Both the position numbers and the translations under genes were made by a program. Below the pieces are notes generated by a model. The model made no database searches. It was given only the letters and a program-made list of their open reading frames with translations, and was not told the DNA's origin. DNA of 64,000 bases, from positions 186,001-250,000 of the forward strand of contig NZ_VOPY01000002.1 in the NCBI RefSeq assembly GCF_007995095.1, in the 5' to 3' direction. Positions 36,295 to 41,388 of this stretch are shown in pieces (positions within the stretch are counted from its first letter, which is position 1; each line of letters starts with the position of its first letter). This DNA comes from Flavisphingopyxis soli. GTDB lineage: Bacteria > Pseudomonadota > Alphaproteobacteria > Sphingomonadales > Sphingomonadaceae.

Positions 36295-36741
36295 TCAGCC
36301 CAGCGGATCTTCGCTCGGGATGATCGGCAGCAGGCGCGAATCGGCGATCGCGGCGCTGCGGTGGCCGACGATCTTGAGATATTCGGGATCGCTGGCAAAG
36401 GCCATGAAGGCCTGGCGACTGGCCTGTTCGACCAGCATGACGAAATCCCAGTCCTCGTCTTCCGGACCGATCAGGAACGACCCGGCGCTCCCCGCGAACA
36501 GCAGCTGTCCACCCGATGCCGCGAGAAACGGTGCGGTCGCCTTCATATAGCGGTCATAGGCCTGCGCTCCGCTGATCGGCGCGTCGGGGGCAAGATCGGG
36601 AAAGTCCGCGTAATCGGCGACGTCGCGGAACTTGAGCAGGTTGAGCATCACGACGCGCCCGCTGTCGGGATTGCCGAAGAAGCGCATCCCCGCCTCCTGC
36701 GTGACATCGATATGGGCTGGGCGCTCGTTAGCAGCGGTCAT
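36295..36741 (-). CDS. DUF1330-family protein
   Basis: A 148-residue cytosolic protein of the DUF1330 dimeric alpha/beta-barrel type. Recognisable segments are VVMLNLLKFRDVADYADFPD, YDRYMKATAPFLAASGGQLL, and the C-terminal WDFVMLVEQASRQAFMAFAS with SDPEYLKIVGHRSAAI. The family is structurally similar to small monooxygenases, but no catalytic function can be read here. It follows pth with a 1-base gap on the same strand, so it is cotranscribed with it. Confidence 0.8.
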   Translation of the reverse strand: MTAANERPAHIDVTQEAGMRFFGNPDSGRVVMLNLLKFRDVADYADFPDLAPDAPISGAQAYDRYMKATAPFLAASGGQLLFAGSAGSFLIGPEDEDWDFVMLVEQASRQAFMAFASDPEYLKIVGHRSAAIADSRLLPIIPSEDPLG

Positions 36742-36742
36742 G

Positions 36743-37321
36743 TCATTCCTCGTTATCGTGCATCCTCATCGCGATATCGCTCATGAAGCGCGGGTCGTCG
36801 CCGGCCGCCAGCCAGCCCGCTTCGGCGGCGATCGCGCCGAGCAAATCGGACAGCGGCTCGAATTCGGCCTTGGCATAGTTCGACAGGACATAGCCGTGGA
36901 CGCGGGCCTTGTCGCCGGGATGGCCGATGCCGATGCGCACGCGGCGATAATCCTGGCCGATATGCGCGTCGGCCGAGCGCAGGCCGTTATGCCCCGCCGC
37001 GCCGCCGCCAGTCTTCACTTTCACCTTGAACGGCGCGAGATCGAGCTCGTCGTGGAACACGGTGACGTCGCCGGGCTCGAGCTTGTAGAAATCGAGCGCG
37101 GCACGAATGCTCTCGCCGCTGCGGTTCATGAAGGTCGCGGGTTTCAGCAGGACGATCTTGTCCGATCCGATGCGCCCCTCGCGCGTCCAGCCCTTGAACT
37201 GCTTGCGGTCGGCGGTGAAGCCGTGCGTTTCGGCAATGGCGTCGAGCGCCATGAAGCCGACATTATGTCGGTGGAGCGCATAGTCCGCGCCCGGATTGCC
37301 GAGACCTACCCACAGTTGCAT
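36743..37321 (-). CDS. pth: Peptidyl-tRNA hydrolase
   Basis: Recycles tRNA by cutting the ester bond of peptidyl-tRNA released by stalled ribosomes. The 192-residue product starts MQLWVGLGNPGADYALHRHN. The catalytic His is in HNVGF, the catalytic Asp in FHDELDL, and FMNRSGESI is also conserved. A slightly earlier ATG at 37333 adds four residues (MPRV); neither has a clear SD. The gene normally adjoins rplY upstream. Here a rightward transglutaminase-like gene lies between them. Confidence 0.94.
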   Translation of the reverse strand: MQLWVGLGNPGADYALHRHNVGFMALDAIAETHGFTADRKQFKGWTREGRIGSDKIVLLKPATFMNRSGESIRAALDFYKLEPGDVTVFHDELDLAPFKVKVKTGGGAAGHNGLRSADAHIGQDYRRVRIGIGHPGDKARVHGYVLSNYAKAEFEPLSDLLGAIAAEAGWLAAGDDPRFMSDIAMRMHDNEE

Positions 37322-37599
37322 GACGCGGGGCATAAGGATTGCGCCGCATTTGCCAAGCCTCGTCGTCGGTTGATGCGAAATAGGCCCAACTGCGTCCGCC
37401 ATTGACCGACGGCCAATCTCGACCCGTGGAACCCAGTCGTCCGCAAGTGCGAAAGGATTTGCCGGTCCCGCGATGCATCGCAAGTCAATCTAATATGTTC
37501 AAAACGATGCATTAATATAACAAAAATGGGTTCGTATCGTGTTGACACCCGCAAGTCTCAGACTTAGCGCCTGCCGGTGTTCTCACTGATGGCGATACG
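37322..37599. other. AT-richer divergent control region
   Basis: A 278-base gap between pth (leftward) and the transglutaminase-like gene (rightward), distinctly AT-rich around 37480-37545. It contains a TTGACA box at 37542-37547 that could be a -35 element for the rightward gene, though no good -10 box follows at the right spacing. No gene was found in it. Confidence 0.4.
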
Positions 37600-38487
37600 A
37601 TGTTCGACTGGCTACGACTGCTTCTGCTGGCTGCTACCCTGTTCGCCGGCGCGATGACCGGATGGGCGCAGACCAAGACCTGTATACCCGAAATCTCGCG
37701 ATTTACTGACGACGTCTACGATCCCGCGCTGGGCAACGTCGATACGCTCGACAAGGCCGAATTCTACATCCGCGGACAGTTGCCGAAAAACTCTACCAAA
37801 GCCGATGCAGCCGAAGCGATTGGCCGCTTCCTGCGCCAGCGCTTCTACCACGGCTTTTCCGAATATCGCATCTGCGAAAACTGGATCAGCCATTATGTCG
37901 GATTGATCAACCATCAGTGGATCAGCCCGATCAGCCCCGACGAGATCATCCGCTACCGAAGCGCAGGATGCAGCCAGAACACGCTCGTCTACCAGTCGCT
38001 ATTGAGCCGTTTCGGGATAGATTATGCGACCGTCTCGTTCTGGCATCCCGAACACCGCGCCACCGCGGCAAAGATCGACGGTACCTGGTACTATTTCGAT
38101 GCCGATATCGAACCGCACCGTGACCGGCTGGTCAGGTTCGACGAGGTGATGCGCGGCCACGTACTGCGCGAAATGTATCGCGGAAAAGCGGGCGCTCCGG
38201 GCTTTGGCCACGGCGACGATCTCGGCCTCCAGTTCGAGGAAGCGGCGCAGCTCGGCAAGATCACCTTTACCGATATCGACCGCTATCCGGCCGAACGAGG
38301 CGCTTTTATCCACCGGCTGACTGGCTGGCTGAGTGTCTATGGCTGGCTGGTCGGACTGGCGATCTCGCTGTTCGCGGTGGTAGTCGGGCCGCCATCGCGC
38401 TTCGCCGTCCTGCGTCGCGTGCAAGCCGCCTTCCGCTTCACCAGGCCCGGTAACAACCGATCCGCCGCGAAATCGTTCGCGGCATAA
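37600..38487 (+). CDS. Membrane-anchored transglutaminase-like protein
   Basis: A 295-residue exported protein with a signal peptide (LLLLAATLFAGAMTGWAQ) and one C-terminal transmembrane helix (about 243-265), followed by a basic cytosolic tail. In between is a transglutaminase-like pattern: Cys124 in SAGCSQNTLVYQSLL followed by the FGIDYATV strand, His152 in HPEHRATAAKIDG, and Asp167 in WYYFDADIEP. This Cys-His-Asp order and spacing fit the papain-like transglutaminase fold, whose members include proteases and amidases. Activity and substrate are unknown. It lies alone between pth and rplY on the opposite strand. The transglutaminase assignment is my inference from the motif. Confidence 0.65.
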   Translation: MFDWLRLLLLAATLFAGAMTGWAQTKTCIPEISRFTDDVYDPALGNVDTLDKAEFYIRGQLPKNSTKADAAEAIGRFLRQRFYHGFSEYRICENWISHYVGLINHQWISPISPDEIIRYRSAGCSQNTLVYQSLLSRFGIDYATVSFWHPEHRATAAKIDGTWYYFDADIEPHRDRLVRFDEVMRGHVLREMYRGKAGAPGFGHGDDLGLQFEEAAQLGKITFTDIDRYPAERGAFIHRLTGWLSVYGWLVGLAISLFAVVVGPPSRFAVLRRVQAAFRFTRPGNNRSAAKSFAA

Positions 38488-38539
38488 TGCCTCACTAGGC
38501 CGGAGCCACCGGGCAAGTTTGCCCCGGCCCGGACCCAAA

Positions 38540-38578
38540 CGCAAAGCGCCGGCCGCGGATGTCTCCGGGCCGGCGCTC
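38540..38578 (-). terminator. Intrinsic terminator after rplY
   Basis: Read on the minus strand, a strong stem AGCGCCGGCC / GGCCGGCGCT (38545-38554 with 38567-38577) and a loop of about 12 bases is followed by TTTGCGTTT, about 20 bases beyond the rplY stop. On the plus strand the same hairpin lies about 55 bases after the transglutaminase-like gene and may serve both. Confidence 0.7.
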
Positions 38579-38597
38579 GTAGCGTATTGTGGAGGGC

Positions 38598-39299
38598 TTA
38601 TTCGCCCTTGGCGTCGTCCGATGTCTCGGCATTTTCGCCGCCTTCGGCATCGTCGGTCTGCTCGGTCGCAGGAACGTCGCCGGCATCGACTTCGTCGTCT
38701 GCGCCTTCGGCTTCGTCGTCCTGGCTCTTGAGTGCCGACGGTGCGACGAGCGTTGCGATGGTGAAGTCGCGATCGTCGATCGCCGAGACCGAACCTTCGG
38801 GCAGGGTGACGTTCGAGATGTGGATCGAATCGCCGATTTCGAGGCCGGTGAGGTCGATGTGGATCTCGTCGGGGATTTTCGACGCGTCGCACATCAGTTC
38901 GAGCTCATGGCGCACGACGTTGAGCACGCCGCCACGCTTGAGGCCGGGCGCTGCTTCTTCGTTCTCGAACACGACGGGAACGTTGACCGCGACGGTCGAA
39001 CCCTTGGCAAGGCGATAGAAATCGACGTGCATCGGGCGATCGGTGACGGGGTGGAAGGCGACGTCCTTGGGCAGGGTCCGGTGGGTCTTGCCGCCGGCGT
39101 CGACCATGACGACCGAGTTCATGAAATGGCCGGTCATCAACTGCTTGACGAGCGCCTTTTCCTCGACGTGGATGGTAATCGGGTCTTCCTTGCCGCCGTA
39201 GATAACGGCGGGTACGCGGCCTTCACGACGTAGCGCACGGGAGGCTCCCTTGCCTGCCCGATCGCGAGTCTCGGCCGACAGCGTCAGCTGATCGCTCAT
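38598..39299 (-). CDS. rplY: 50S ribosomal protein L25 / general stress protein Ctc
   Basis: A 233-residue 5S-rRNA-binding protein of the long Ctc type. The N-terminal L25 domain starts [20 protein letters not shown] with [12 protein letters not shown]. The C-terminal TL5 domain contains [10 protein letters not shown] and [15 protein letters not shown]. An acidic tail ([15 protein letters not shown] onward) follows, common in alphaproteobacterial forms. The ATG at 39299 follows AGACAC with a modest SD. It usually leads an rplY-pth operon; in this genome that order is interrupted. Confidence 0.95.
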
Positions 39300-39404
39300 A
39301 ATGTGTCTCCAAATGGTTGGTTCATGCCGCCACGCCTCCAGGGATGACCATGGCTTGGCAAGCGCGCGCCTATAGTCGGCAAGCGCGCTTTATGCAAGCG
39401 GCGG

Positions 39405-40352
39405 CTACTCGATCCGCTCGACGGTGAGGCCGGTCTGCCGGGCAAGGCGCGCCTGGACCGATTGCGTGCCGGCGAGGTGCGCGATGCCGACCGCGACGAA
39501 GATCGTGCCGGGTCGTGCGAGCCGCGCTTCGAGCTGGTCGGCCCAGCGCGCGTTGCGCTGGTCGAGCAGCGGTCCCGCCAGCCCGTCGACCGAGCGCAGG
39601 TCGTCCGAAACGAGCCGGTCGATCGTCGCGACATCGCCGGTTTCCCACGCCCGCGCCAGCGCCGTCGCCTGCGCCGCATCGCTCTCGGCGCCGGTGATCG
39701 CCTTCACCAGAAAGGCGTTCTGCGTCGCTGGCGGCAGCGCGTCGAAAATGCCGAGCTGGCTGGCGGTCGTCTCAAAGCCTGCGACCGGCTTTCCGGCACT
39801 GCGAAAGCGCGCATCGAGCGCGGGTTCGACACCGCGCGCGGGGTCGAAGCCGGCGCGCGCGCCGACCGCATTGCCGATGACCAGCGCGGCGGCCCAGTCC
39901 TCCATGTCGTCGAGCTGCGAGCGGCGCAGCTTGGCGCGTTCGACGACATGGTCGAATGCCAGCGACAGCTTGCGATCGATCCGCGCGGCGATCGGTGTGT
40001 TCGGCGCATGGTCGCTCGCCATCGCGGCGAACAGGCTGAGTTCGTCGACGCTGTCGCTATCGGCGATTTCCATGATCAGCTCGTCCGACGCATCGATCGC
40101 GCGTTCGACCGCCGGGGTGCGCCACGCGACATCGTGCGGCAGCGCGTGGATCGTGCCGAAGAAATAGATCGTCGTGTCGCCATCGGCGATCCGCCACAGC
40201 GCCGGCCTGGCGACCGCTGCGGGGGTGCTGGCCGCCTGCGGCTGCGGCCGGTCGTGCAGCAGCGCGAAGACGAGCACGCCGATCGCCGCGGCGAGCGCGA
40301 GCGTCACGCTCAGCCACAGGCCACGCGACGATCTGGCCAGCGCGCGCCGCAT
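39405..40352 (-). CDS. TraB/GumN-family protein (tandem copy 2)
   Basis: A 315-residue TraB/GumN (COG3735)-family protein. It has an N-terminal membrane or signal segment (about residues 12-35) and an ATG at 40352. The family signatures are ALWRIADGDTTIYFFGTIHA with GTIH, ELIMEIAD with the conserved Glu, and VGIAHLAGTQSVQARLARQT near the C-terminus. Members of this fold are suspected metalloproteases (Tiki-related), but no activity has been shown for most bacterial ones. It directly follows a paralogue, separated by 5 bases, so both are probably in one transcript. Confidence 0.82.
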   Translation of the reverse strand: MRRALARSSRGLWLSVTLALAAAIGVLVFALLHDRPQPQAASTPAAVARPALWRIADGDTTIYFFGTIHALPHDVAWRTPAVERAIDASDELIMEIADSDSVDELSLFAAMASDHAPNTPIAARIDRKLSLAFDHVVERAKLRRSQLDDMEDWAAALVIGNAVGARAGFDPARGVEPALDARFRSAGKPVAGFETTASQLGIFDALPPATQNAFLVKAITGAESDAAQATALARAWETGDVATIDRLVSDDLRSVDGLAGPLLDQRNARWADQLEARLARPGTIFVAVGIAHLAGTQSVQARLARQTGLTVERIE

Positions 40353-40357
40353 GCCGA

Positions 40358-41278
40358 TCAGTAATCGATCCGCGTGGCGACGATGCCGCGCTGGGCGAGA
40401 TACGCCTGGACGCTGGCGTCGCCCGCCAGGTGTCCCGCGCCGACCGCCATGAAGACCGTGCCCGGCTGCTTCATCCGCTCGTCGAGCCACGCCGCCCAGC
40501 GCGCATTGCGGTCGGCGAGCAGGATCTTGCCGAGCGTCGGCGTCGTCTTGAGCCCCTCGTTGAGCAGAGCGGCGAGGTCGGCGACATCGCCTGTCGCCCA
40601 GTCACGCTCCATCCGCGCGGTTTCCTTGGCGAGATCGGGCAGGCCGTCGATTGTCGCCATCAGGAAGGCTATCTGGTCGGCGACCGGCAGCGCGTCGAAA
40701 AACCCGATCTGTTCGTCGAAGGTTTCGACCGCGGCGATTTTCTTGCCTCCGGATTTCGCGCCGTTCGCGACGATCTTCTCGACCCCGGCGTCGGGATCGA
40801 AGCCGAGCTTCTGCATCGGCATCGTCGACAGCGTGATCGCGGCCGCCCACGGCTTCAATTTGTCGAAGGTCGCGGGCGCCATACCCATCTGGCCCAACGC
40901 CGCGTCGTAACGCGTGCGCTGCGCGTCATCCAGCCGGTCGCGCAGCGCGATTCCGTCGCTCGCCATCGCGCGCGCCATGATCACCTGCTGCATCGTCGCT
41001 GCATCGGGCTCGACCATCTCGAGGACGAGCTCGTCCGACGCGTCGAACGCGGTCTTCACCGCGTCGTCGAACCAGACGAGGTCGGGCTTGAGCAGGTGGA
41101 TCGTGCCGAACAGGTAGATCGTCGTGTCGGCGTCCTTGATCACCCAGATCGCCGGATCGGCATCGCCGCGATCGAACGCGGCAGCGCCGTTTGCGGCGAG
41201 GTCGCCGGTCGTCGCACAGCCCGCCAGGCCGAGCATCAAGGGCAGGGCGGCGAGGCGAAGGACTTTGCGGAAGGTCAT
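40358..41278 (-). CDS. TraB/GumN-family lipoprotein (tandem copy 1)
   Basis: A 306-residue paralogue of the gene below it, starting MTFRKVLRLAALPLMLGLAG with lipobox GLAGC at residue 20. The same family signatures are present: IWVIKDADTTIYLFGTIHLL, ELVLEMVEPD, and MAVGAGHLAGDASVQAYLAQ. Unlike copy 2 it is a predicted lipoprotein. A 5-base gap to copy 2 on the same strand suggests a two-gene operon. It diverges from glyQ over 110 bases. The likely role is envelope proteolysis or metal-dependent hydrolysis by family analogy only. Confidence 0.83.
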   Translation of the reverse strand: MTFRKVLRLAALPLMLGLAGCATTGDLAANGAAAFDRGDADPAIWVIKDADTTIYLFGTIHLLKPDLVWFDDAVKTAFDASDELVLEMVEPDAATMQQVIMARAMASDGIALRDRLDDAQRTRYDAALGQMGMAPATFDKLKPWAAAITLSTMPMQKLGFDPDAGVEKIVANGAKSGGKKIAAVETFDEQIGFFDALPVADQIAFLMATIDGLPDLAKETARMERDWATGDVADLAALLNEGLKTTPTLGKILLADRNARWAAWLDERMKQPGTVFMAVGAGHLAGDASVQAYLAQRGIVATRIDY

Positions 41279-41388
41279 GATCGTCGTTTCTCCAGGGCCG
41301 AAAGGGGCGGGCCGGGCGCATCTATATCGTTCGCCGGGTCGATGCCCAGCCTTGATTTGCGCCGCCTGCTCCGCCAAAGCCCTCGCCC

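Follow-up and report, generated by a model that had tools for sequence, protein, structure and literature searches.

A small, scattered family of probable membrane-anchored transglutaminase-like enzymes, with a member encoded between pth and rplY in a sphingomonad genome

The locus and its features

The window, by which is meant the whole stretch of 64,000 nucleotides that was analysed, belongs to a host genome of 2,587,073 bases in 4 contigs. It carries the genes for peptidyl-tRNA hydrolase (pth) and ribosomal protein bL25 (rplY), both on the minus strand, and between them an open reading frame on the opposite strand (Table 1). The preliminary description had placed a 295-residue reading frame here, opposite in strand to two translation genes, and both the frame, at the same coordinates, and its setting were confirmed, the flanking genes being identified by their PF01195 and PF01386 matches.

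Table 1. Coordinates and basis of the features discussed (positions in the window unless a locus is named)
Feature	Position	Strand	Basis or remark
pth (peptidyl-tRNA hydrolase)	36743..37333	-	PF01195, E 1.7e-58; start provisional
AT-rich upstream region	37334..37599	+	TTGACA at 37542-37547, also in the upstream region of the orthologue
ORF of the membrane-anchored transglutaminase-like protein (predicted)	37600..38487	+	295 aa; ATG at 37600, stop at 38485-38487
N-terminal hydrophobic segment, residues 1-23	37600..37668	+	Hydropathy, 6/6 members; putative signal peptide or signal anchor
Predicted periplasmic catalytic domain, residues 46-237	37735..38310	+	Sub-cut-off DUF553/Transglut_core matches, hhalign, low-confidence domain model
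Trp95, invariant	37882..37884	+	Six-row alignment
Cys124 (TGC), predicted nucleophile, invariant C-S-Q motif	37969..37971	+	Alignment, hhalign
His152 (CAC), predicted catalytic His	38053..38055	+	Alignment, hhalign
Asp167 (GAT), predicted catalytic Asp	38098..38100	+	Alignment, hhalign
C-terminal hydrophobic segment, residues 244-262	38329..38385	+	19-residue hydropathy 2.24
GC-rich inverted repeat between the ORF and rplY	38545..38577	-	Conserved in orthologue L004
rplY (ribosomal bL25)	38598..39299	-	PF01386, E 1.6e-26
Orthologue in a second species	L004:3636-4481		Start and synteny as in the window ORF; 72-73% identity

The AT-richer control region of the preliminary description was also recovered: the upstream region has a GC content of 53.0%, compared with 65.3% for the window, a value as low as that of 0.3% of 3187 same-length windows, and within it the stretch 37480-37545 falls to 31.8%. 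A consensus scan reported no promoter site in this region, despite the TTGACA hexamer. The inverted repeat downstream of the reading frame is a possible rplY terminator; it was not listed by a terminator scan in which a T run is required. No Rfam match at the gathering score was found in 36700-39500.

The nearest named relative found is a Sphingomonadales MAG (L004, JAACTG010000048.1), which encodes the orthologue listed in Table 1. A dN/dS (omega) of 0.14 was obtained for this orthologue pair at a dS of 1.34, showing that purifying selection is acting. The pS of the gene between the window and L004 is 0.62 (bootstrap interval 0.55-0.71), against 0.20-0.49 for six other genes in the stretch, and its GC3 is lower (0.74 in the window and 0.68 in L004, compared with 0.79-0.91 in the six compared genes). 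The high pS may stem from codon bias being weaker in this gene or from the gene having been replaced by a diverged copy, two explanations that are indistinguishable here. On the far side of rplY, at 39405-41377 on the minus strand, two adjacent genes of the TraB/PrgY/GumN family are fast-evolving between the two species (identity 0.57 and 0.67; dN/dS 0.48 and 0.45), with well conserved genes alongside.

Insertion between pth and rplY

The site was compared in 30 genomes, namely the window's own, the second species (L065) and 28 of other genera, and pth was found in all 30. The gene is present between pth and rplY in the second species and absent from this site in all 28 genomes of other genera. 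In 27 of these 28 relatives the fetched stretch includes bL25 upstream of pth and in the same orientation, and in 26 of the 27 the two matches are at most 521 bp apart, so that the earlier statement that pth and rplY are normally adjacent holds for 26 of the 28 relatives that lack the gene at this site. The wider spacing was found in L068 (G007, of a genus other than that of the window), where 1.18 kb separates pth from bL25 and encloses other small reading frames (L068:2078-3134); as these are frames other than the gene described here, insertions seem to be tolerated at this site. The pth flank of L062, in which no bL25 was found, holds a reading frame resembling acetyl-CoA synthetase (named by eye). 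The gene is accessory and, since both examined genomes of the genus carry it at this site, it was inserted between pth and rplY before the two species split.

Protein architecture

The signal peptide and C-terminal anchor of the preliminary description correspond to the two hydrophobic segments at residues 1-23 and 244-262, as judged solely by hydropathy. The C-terminal segment lies above threshold in five of the six family members and below it in L039. In the window protein it is followed by a tail of 33 residues containing 7 Lys/Arg and 0 Asp/Glu, whereas the tails of homologues are less clearly positive (3 Lys/Arg versus 3 Asp/Glu in L005, and 1 versus 2 in L034). By the positive-inside rule a positively charged tail lies on the cytoplasmic side of the membrane, and the 7 Lys/Arg without Asp/Glu would place the tail of the window protein on that side and the domain on the periplasmic side. 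We infer from these features an inner-membrane protein whose two hydrophobic ends flank a periplasmic domain.

Family size and distribution

The family comprises six homologues: the window protein, the 72% identical orthologue at the same site in the second species, two members from other genera (27% and 33% identity) and two from outside the class (19% and 22%). As L003, L004, L038 and L065 seem to represent a single contig of one genome, they were counted once. The genome sets searched overlap and are samples, and the counts given below include the window's own genome except for the searches around the order of G939 and the genus of G195.

Using the single window sequence, the gene was found in 2 of 59 genomes of relatives and, among 397 genomes of the family Sphingomonadaceae, in the same two and in G195 (E 9.5e-25). 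At E up to 0.1 the latter search matched 31 genomes, from which G000, G001 and G195 were kept and 28 were dropped as short and weak; the best of those dropped, G100, matched at E 1.6e-4 over residues 165-222 with an internal stop codon. Alignment-based searches found the gene in 3 of 296 genomes of the order (adding G501) and 3 of 397 of the taxonomic family, and gave 2 of 385 in the class (the window's own genome and G660) and 4 of 299 in the phylum (the own genome, G939, G956 and G958). G660 was dropped, its match (E 4.1e-5) covering residues 224-277 only; G958 (L041, E 4.7e-4) differs in the architecture of its reading frame and was not counted as a member, being kept as a Transglut_core comparator. 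In these four alignment-based searches scoring was limited to the 6 to 8 top first-look candidates of each genome, which makes their absences less certain, whereas scoring covered all first-look candidates in the order of G939, where the gene was found in 2 of 48 genomes (G939 and G956), and in the genus of G195, where it was found in 1 of 41 (G195 itself). The distribution is therefore scattered: the gene is present in both examined genomes of the window's genus and rare elsewhere.

A defence or phage origin was rejected. No tblastn match was obtained in plasmids for the window protein, L005 or L039, nor in phages for the window protein; no relative was found in viral contigs from alignment A1 or from L039; the four of six members scanned with PADLOC gave nothing at E up to 0.1; and PHROGs gave weak rows only, in two of four members scanned (best E 0.015).

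The suggestion that the protein represents an uncharacterised family was upheld, as no Pfam model was reached at its cut-off by any of the six members and no NCBIfam model by any of the five scanned, L004 lying outside that scan; the one weak NCBIfam row of the window protein (11 of 300 bits) was taken as chance. An open-access literature search returned no title or abstract start concerning the family. A 2023 classification of papain-like proteinases discusses PF01841, PF04473, PF06035, PF13369 and PF13471, and in the part of it that was available no family of matching architecture appears (PMC10318531; this and the other papers cited by PMC number are cited from the parts available to us). 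We regard the six sequences as a small new family of a well-known superfamily, conserved and probably enzymatic.

Invariant residues

Ten columns are invariant in the six-row alignment (A3), namely W95, C124, S125, Q126, G139, H152, W163, D167, W249 and R267, the five other rows being 72, 27, 33, 19 and 22% identical to the window protein. Cys124, His152 and Asp167 had been singled out as a catalytic set before any homologue was known; all three are among these ten columns and are retained in six of six members, down to 19% identity. Because the same three residues are invariant in six homologues, the triad is not a matter of chance. Rows L034, L039 and L040 were found with profiles that already held the triad residues, so that some selection is built into their agreement; L004 and L005, found with the single window sequence alone, carry all three. 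In the window protein 28 residues separate Cys124 from His152 and 15 separate His152 from Asp167.

Relationship to the transglutaminase-like superfamily

The best Pfam row of the window protein is DUF553 (PF04473, Transglutaminase-like domain; E 0.003, 17.4 of 20.5 bits), and in all six members the top row is transglutaminase-like (DUF553, Transglut_core or Transglut_core2; E 0.0025 to 0.13). The gathering cut-off was reached by none of the six, the best PF01841 score being that of L039 (18.5 of 23 bits). Other weak rows over the same place, to choline-binding repeats, DUF1285, CUB and ApbE, were taken as chance.

Profile comparison was carried out with hhalign. Aligned to the comparator L041, which itself matches Transglut_core at E 8.9e-14, alignment A3 gave a probability of 89, an E value of 2e-6 and a score of 47.7, with the C/H/D residues in register; the transglutaminase/papain-like catalytic order read from the single sequence in the preliminary description was thereby borne out. 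As controls, 60 shuffles of L041 scored at most 19.9, and among 104 translations of window reading frames (150-500 aa, six frames) the best besides the frame itself scored 22.3. Against the host's own DUF3857/Transglut_core protein the C/H/D residues align weakly (probability 6.9, E 0.005).

No transglutaminase was found in sequence searches of the PDB, whether made with the single sequence or with profiles. The only phmmer row there, over residues 82-130 (37843-37989), is the yeast histone deacetylase HOS3 (E 0.0025); it was not repeated with family profiles, one of which gave a nucleocapsid row at E 0.84 and another none, and the match is probably due to chance. On this evidence the window protein belongs to the broad transglutaminase-like superfamily and not to PF01841 or PF04473 as curated. 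With those two families it shares the Cys-His-Asp order and an alignable stretch from His to Asp; it differs in falling below their gathering cut-offs, in having a hydrophobic segment at each end and in its invariant CSQ motif and W95.

Structure models

AlphaFold2 models were built from two sequences only (window and L004), and the pLDDT values of both the full-length model (52.6) and the model of the domain at residues 46-237 (56.4) mark them as low-confidence. The full-length model has a helix at 126-137 and strands at 140-146, 153-159 and 162-166; in it Cys124 would immediately precede a helix, and His152 and Asp167 would lie at the ends of strands, an order consistent with that of the superfamily. 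In VIA-align of the domain model 58 chains reached a Z of at least 2 and 46 rows were listed, all at Z of at most 4.0, the best being 8k56 (Z 4.0, rmsd 4.5, 129 aligned). By our assignment, 44 of the 46 rows are papain/transglutaminase-type enzymes, many of them entries of few proteins, which we take to be arylamine N-acyltransferases, GdmF, vasohibins, PNGases, SseI, CPR-C4 and PeiW/PeiP; 7rto_B and 6iy0_E presumably lie outside this type. The best rows of the full-length model are unrelated proteins (Kap114, Z 5.0), and Foldseek returned nothing at E 0.001 or better (best E 0.67 in the PDB and 0.18 in viral models). The models and their matches are consistent with the superfamily reading and are not taken as proof of it.

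Neighbourhoods of the homologues

A glycosyltransferase-like gene, with EpsE as its best NCBIfam match (E 5.2e-32, below the model's own cut-off), follows the distant homologue L039 in the same orientation after a gap of 47 bp, and on the opposite strand a PIG-L deacetylase gene lies about 2 kb away. The region L042:6777-14936, around the distant homologue in G939, has the look of an unusual biosynthetic cluster: it contains glycosyltransferase-like and methyltransferase/PIG-L deacetylase reading frames and a methylaspartate mutase E-like protein, together with a decarboxylase-like frame and an acyl-CoA-ligase-like fragment (both named by eye). Upstream of L040, the other distant homologue, a large membrane protein is encoded, for which no Pfam or NCBIfam match was found.

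In G195 (L036:8008-15255) NAD-synthetase-like and GGDEF-type reading frames are present, the latter adjoining the homologue, and a YadA-like (trimeric autotransporter-like) frame lies about 5 kb from it; in L037 the neighbours are thioesterase-like and nitronate-monooxygenase-like frames (all assigned by eye). A function drawn from neighbourhood was rejected for the sphingomonad homologues, as each lies in different surroundings and no agreed substrate emerges. Neither the glycan hint of L039 nor the GGDEF/YadA-like hint of G195 was seen in a second genome.

Proposed mechanism and alternative explanations

We consider it probable that the gene encodes a membrane-anchored, periplasm-facing Cys-His-Asp enzyme of the transglutaminase-like class, an estimate that covers class and location and overlaps the protease reading weighed below. 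Within the transglutaminase-like (papain-type) superfamily the domain would be a compact member, its triad formed by Cys124, His152 and Asp167; His152 would activate Cys124 for attack on an amide (or ester) carbonyl, giving a thioacyl intermediate. In human TG2 the oxyanion is stabilised by Trp241, 36 residues before Cys277 (PMC13073648); by analogy, Trp95, which lies 29 residues before Cys124, is a candidate for this role and would perhaps stabilise the oxyanion here. The distance from Cys to His differs, at 28 residues in the window protein and 58 in TG2 by the numbering of the same source. The acyl group would finally be handed to water, making the protein an amidase, deamidase or peptidase, or alternatively to an amine; overall we favour an amidase or acyltransferase. 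Since the protein would be tethered to the membrane, its substrate is most likely an envelope component, either a glycan bearing amidated uronic acids or N-acyl groups, or else a peptide or protein of the envelope.

A more specific account, in which the protein would be a periplasmic cysteine protease like LapG/HvyA (BTLCP, peptidase family C93) that governs adhesion or capsule by cleaving or restraining an envelope protein, is judged rather improbable. HvyA and LapG (PF06035) are exported transglutaminase-like Cys-His-Asp proteins of Gram-negative bacteria, as the window protein is predicted to be; HvyA belongs to Caulobacter, also an alphaproteobacterium, and its C192, H226 and D241 are needed to restrain capsulation (PMC4241560). 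The distance from His to Asp is 15 in both HvyA and the window protein, whereas that from Cys to His is 34 in HvyA and 28 in the window protein, and HvyA, as described in the available part of that paper, is a periplasmic protein with a signal sequence and without a membrane anchor. PF06035 was absent from the Pfam rows of the window protein, L004, L005 and L034 at E up to 10, and from those of L039 and L040 at E up to 1. The GGDEF-type and YadA-like frames of G195 would suit an adhesion-related protease; however, the GGDEF neighbour was seen in that one genome only. The VIA list of the full-length model includes, at rank 10 (Z 2.8), the LapD-type complex entry 4u65_E, a chain that we assume to be LapG.

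Genuine protein crosslinking by transglutaminase activity, which has been reported in vitro for TgpA of Pseudomonas aeruginosa, is very unlikely for the window protein. TgpA (PA2873) resembles it in triad order and, given the topology predicted here, in being an inner-membrane protein with a periplasmic transglutaminase-like domain; however, TgpA is a PF01841 member more than twice as long, with six predicted membrane helices and DUF3488 before the PF01841 domain (PMC3507681). The window protein has two hydrophobic ends and matches neither DUF3488, for which it gave no Pfam row, nor PF01841 above its cut-off. Many prokaryotic members of the superfamily are thought to be hydrolases, which also counts against crosslinking. 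There is only a slim chance that catalysis has been lost and that the fold now serves as a binding or scaffold protein: the sparse distribution suggests a dispensable role, whereas the invariance of the triad over six sequences, down to 19% identity, speaks against such a loss. Finally, the sub-cut-off Pfam scores, the poor structure models and the PDB sequence matches, in which transglutaminases are absent, are what would be expected if the triad were coincidental and the frame encoded an unrelated membrane protein, a reading regarded as extremely unlikely given that exactly Cys124, His152 and Asp167 are invariant and that the hhalign score stands well above its controls.

Substrate and significance

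For the preferred enzyme reading, the neighbours of L039 and the precedent of WbmE of Bordetella bronchiseptica are hints of a glycan substrate. According to PMC3507681, WbmE is a periplasmic transglutaminase that takes part in modifying the LPS O-antigen after its assembly, and it serves here as a functional precedent for glycan modification, likened by description and not by sequence; unlike in the setting of that precedent, the window gene is not beside recognised polysaccharide genes. A fuller proposal, which we hold to be speculative and unlikely, is that the family is a dedicated group of horizontally spread, membrane-tethered transglutaminase-fold enzymes that would modify nascent surface glycans in the periplasm, for example by removing or exchanging uronic-acid amides, and that are carried as a single cassette gene at unrelated sites in a few scattered Proteobacteria.

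Nothing established is overturned by the family, which brings to a large enzyme superfamily a small, uncurated group in which a Cys-His-Asp set is invariant. The six-sequence profile (Trp95 ... C-S-Q ... H ... D) allows others to find further members and names the residues to mutate. If the glycan hint is true, polysaccharide tailoring in the periplasm of the type described for WbmE would be extended to a membrane-tethered family.
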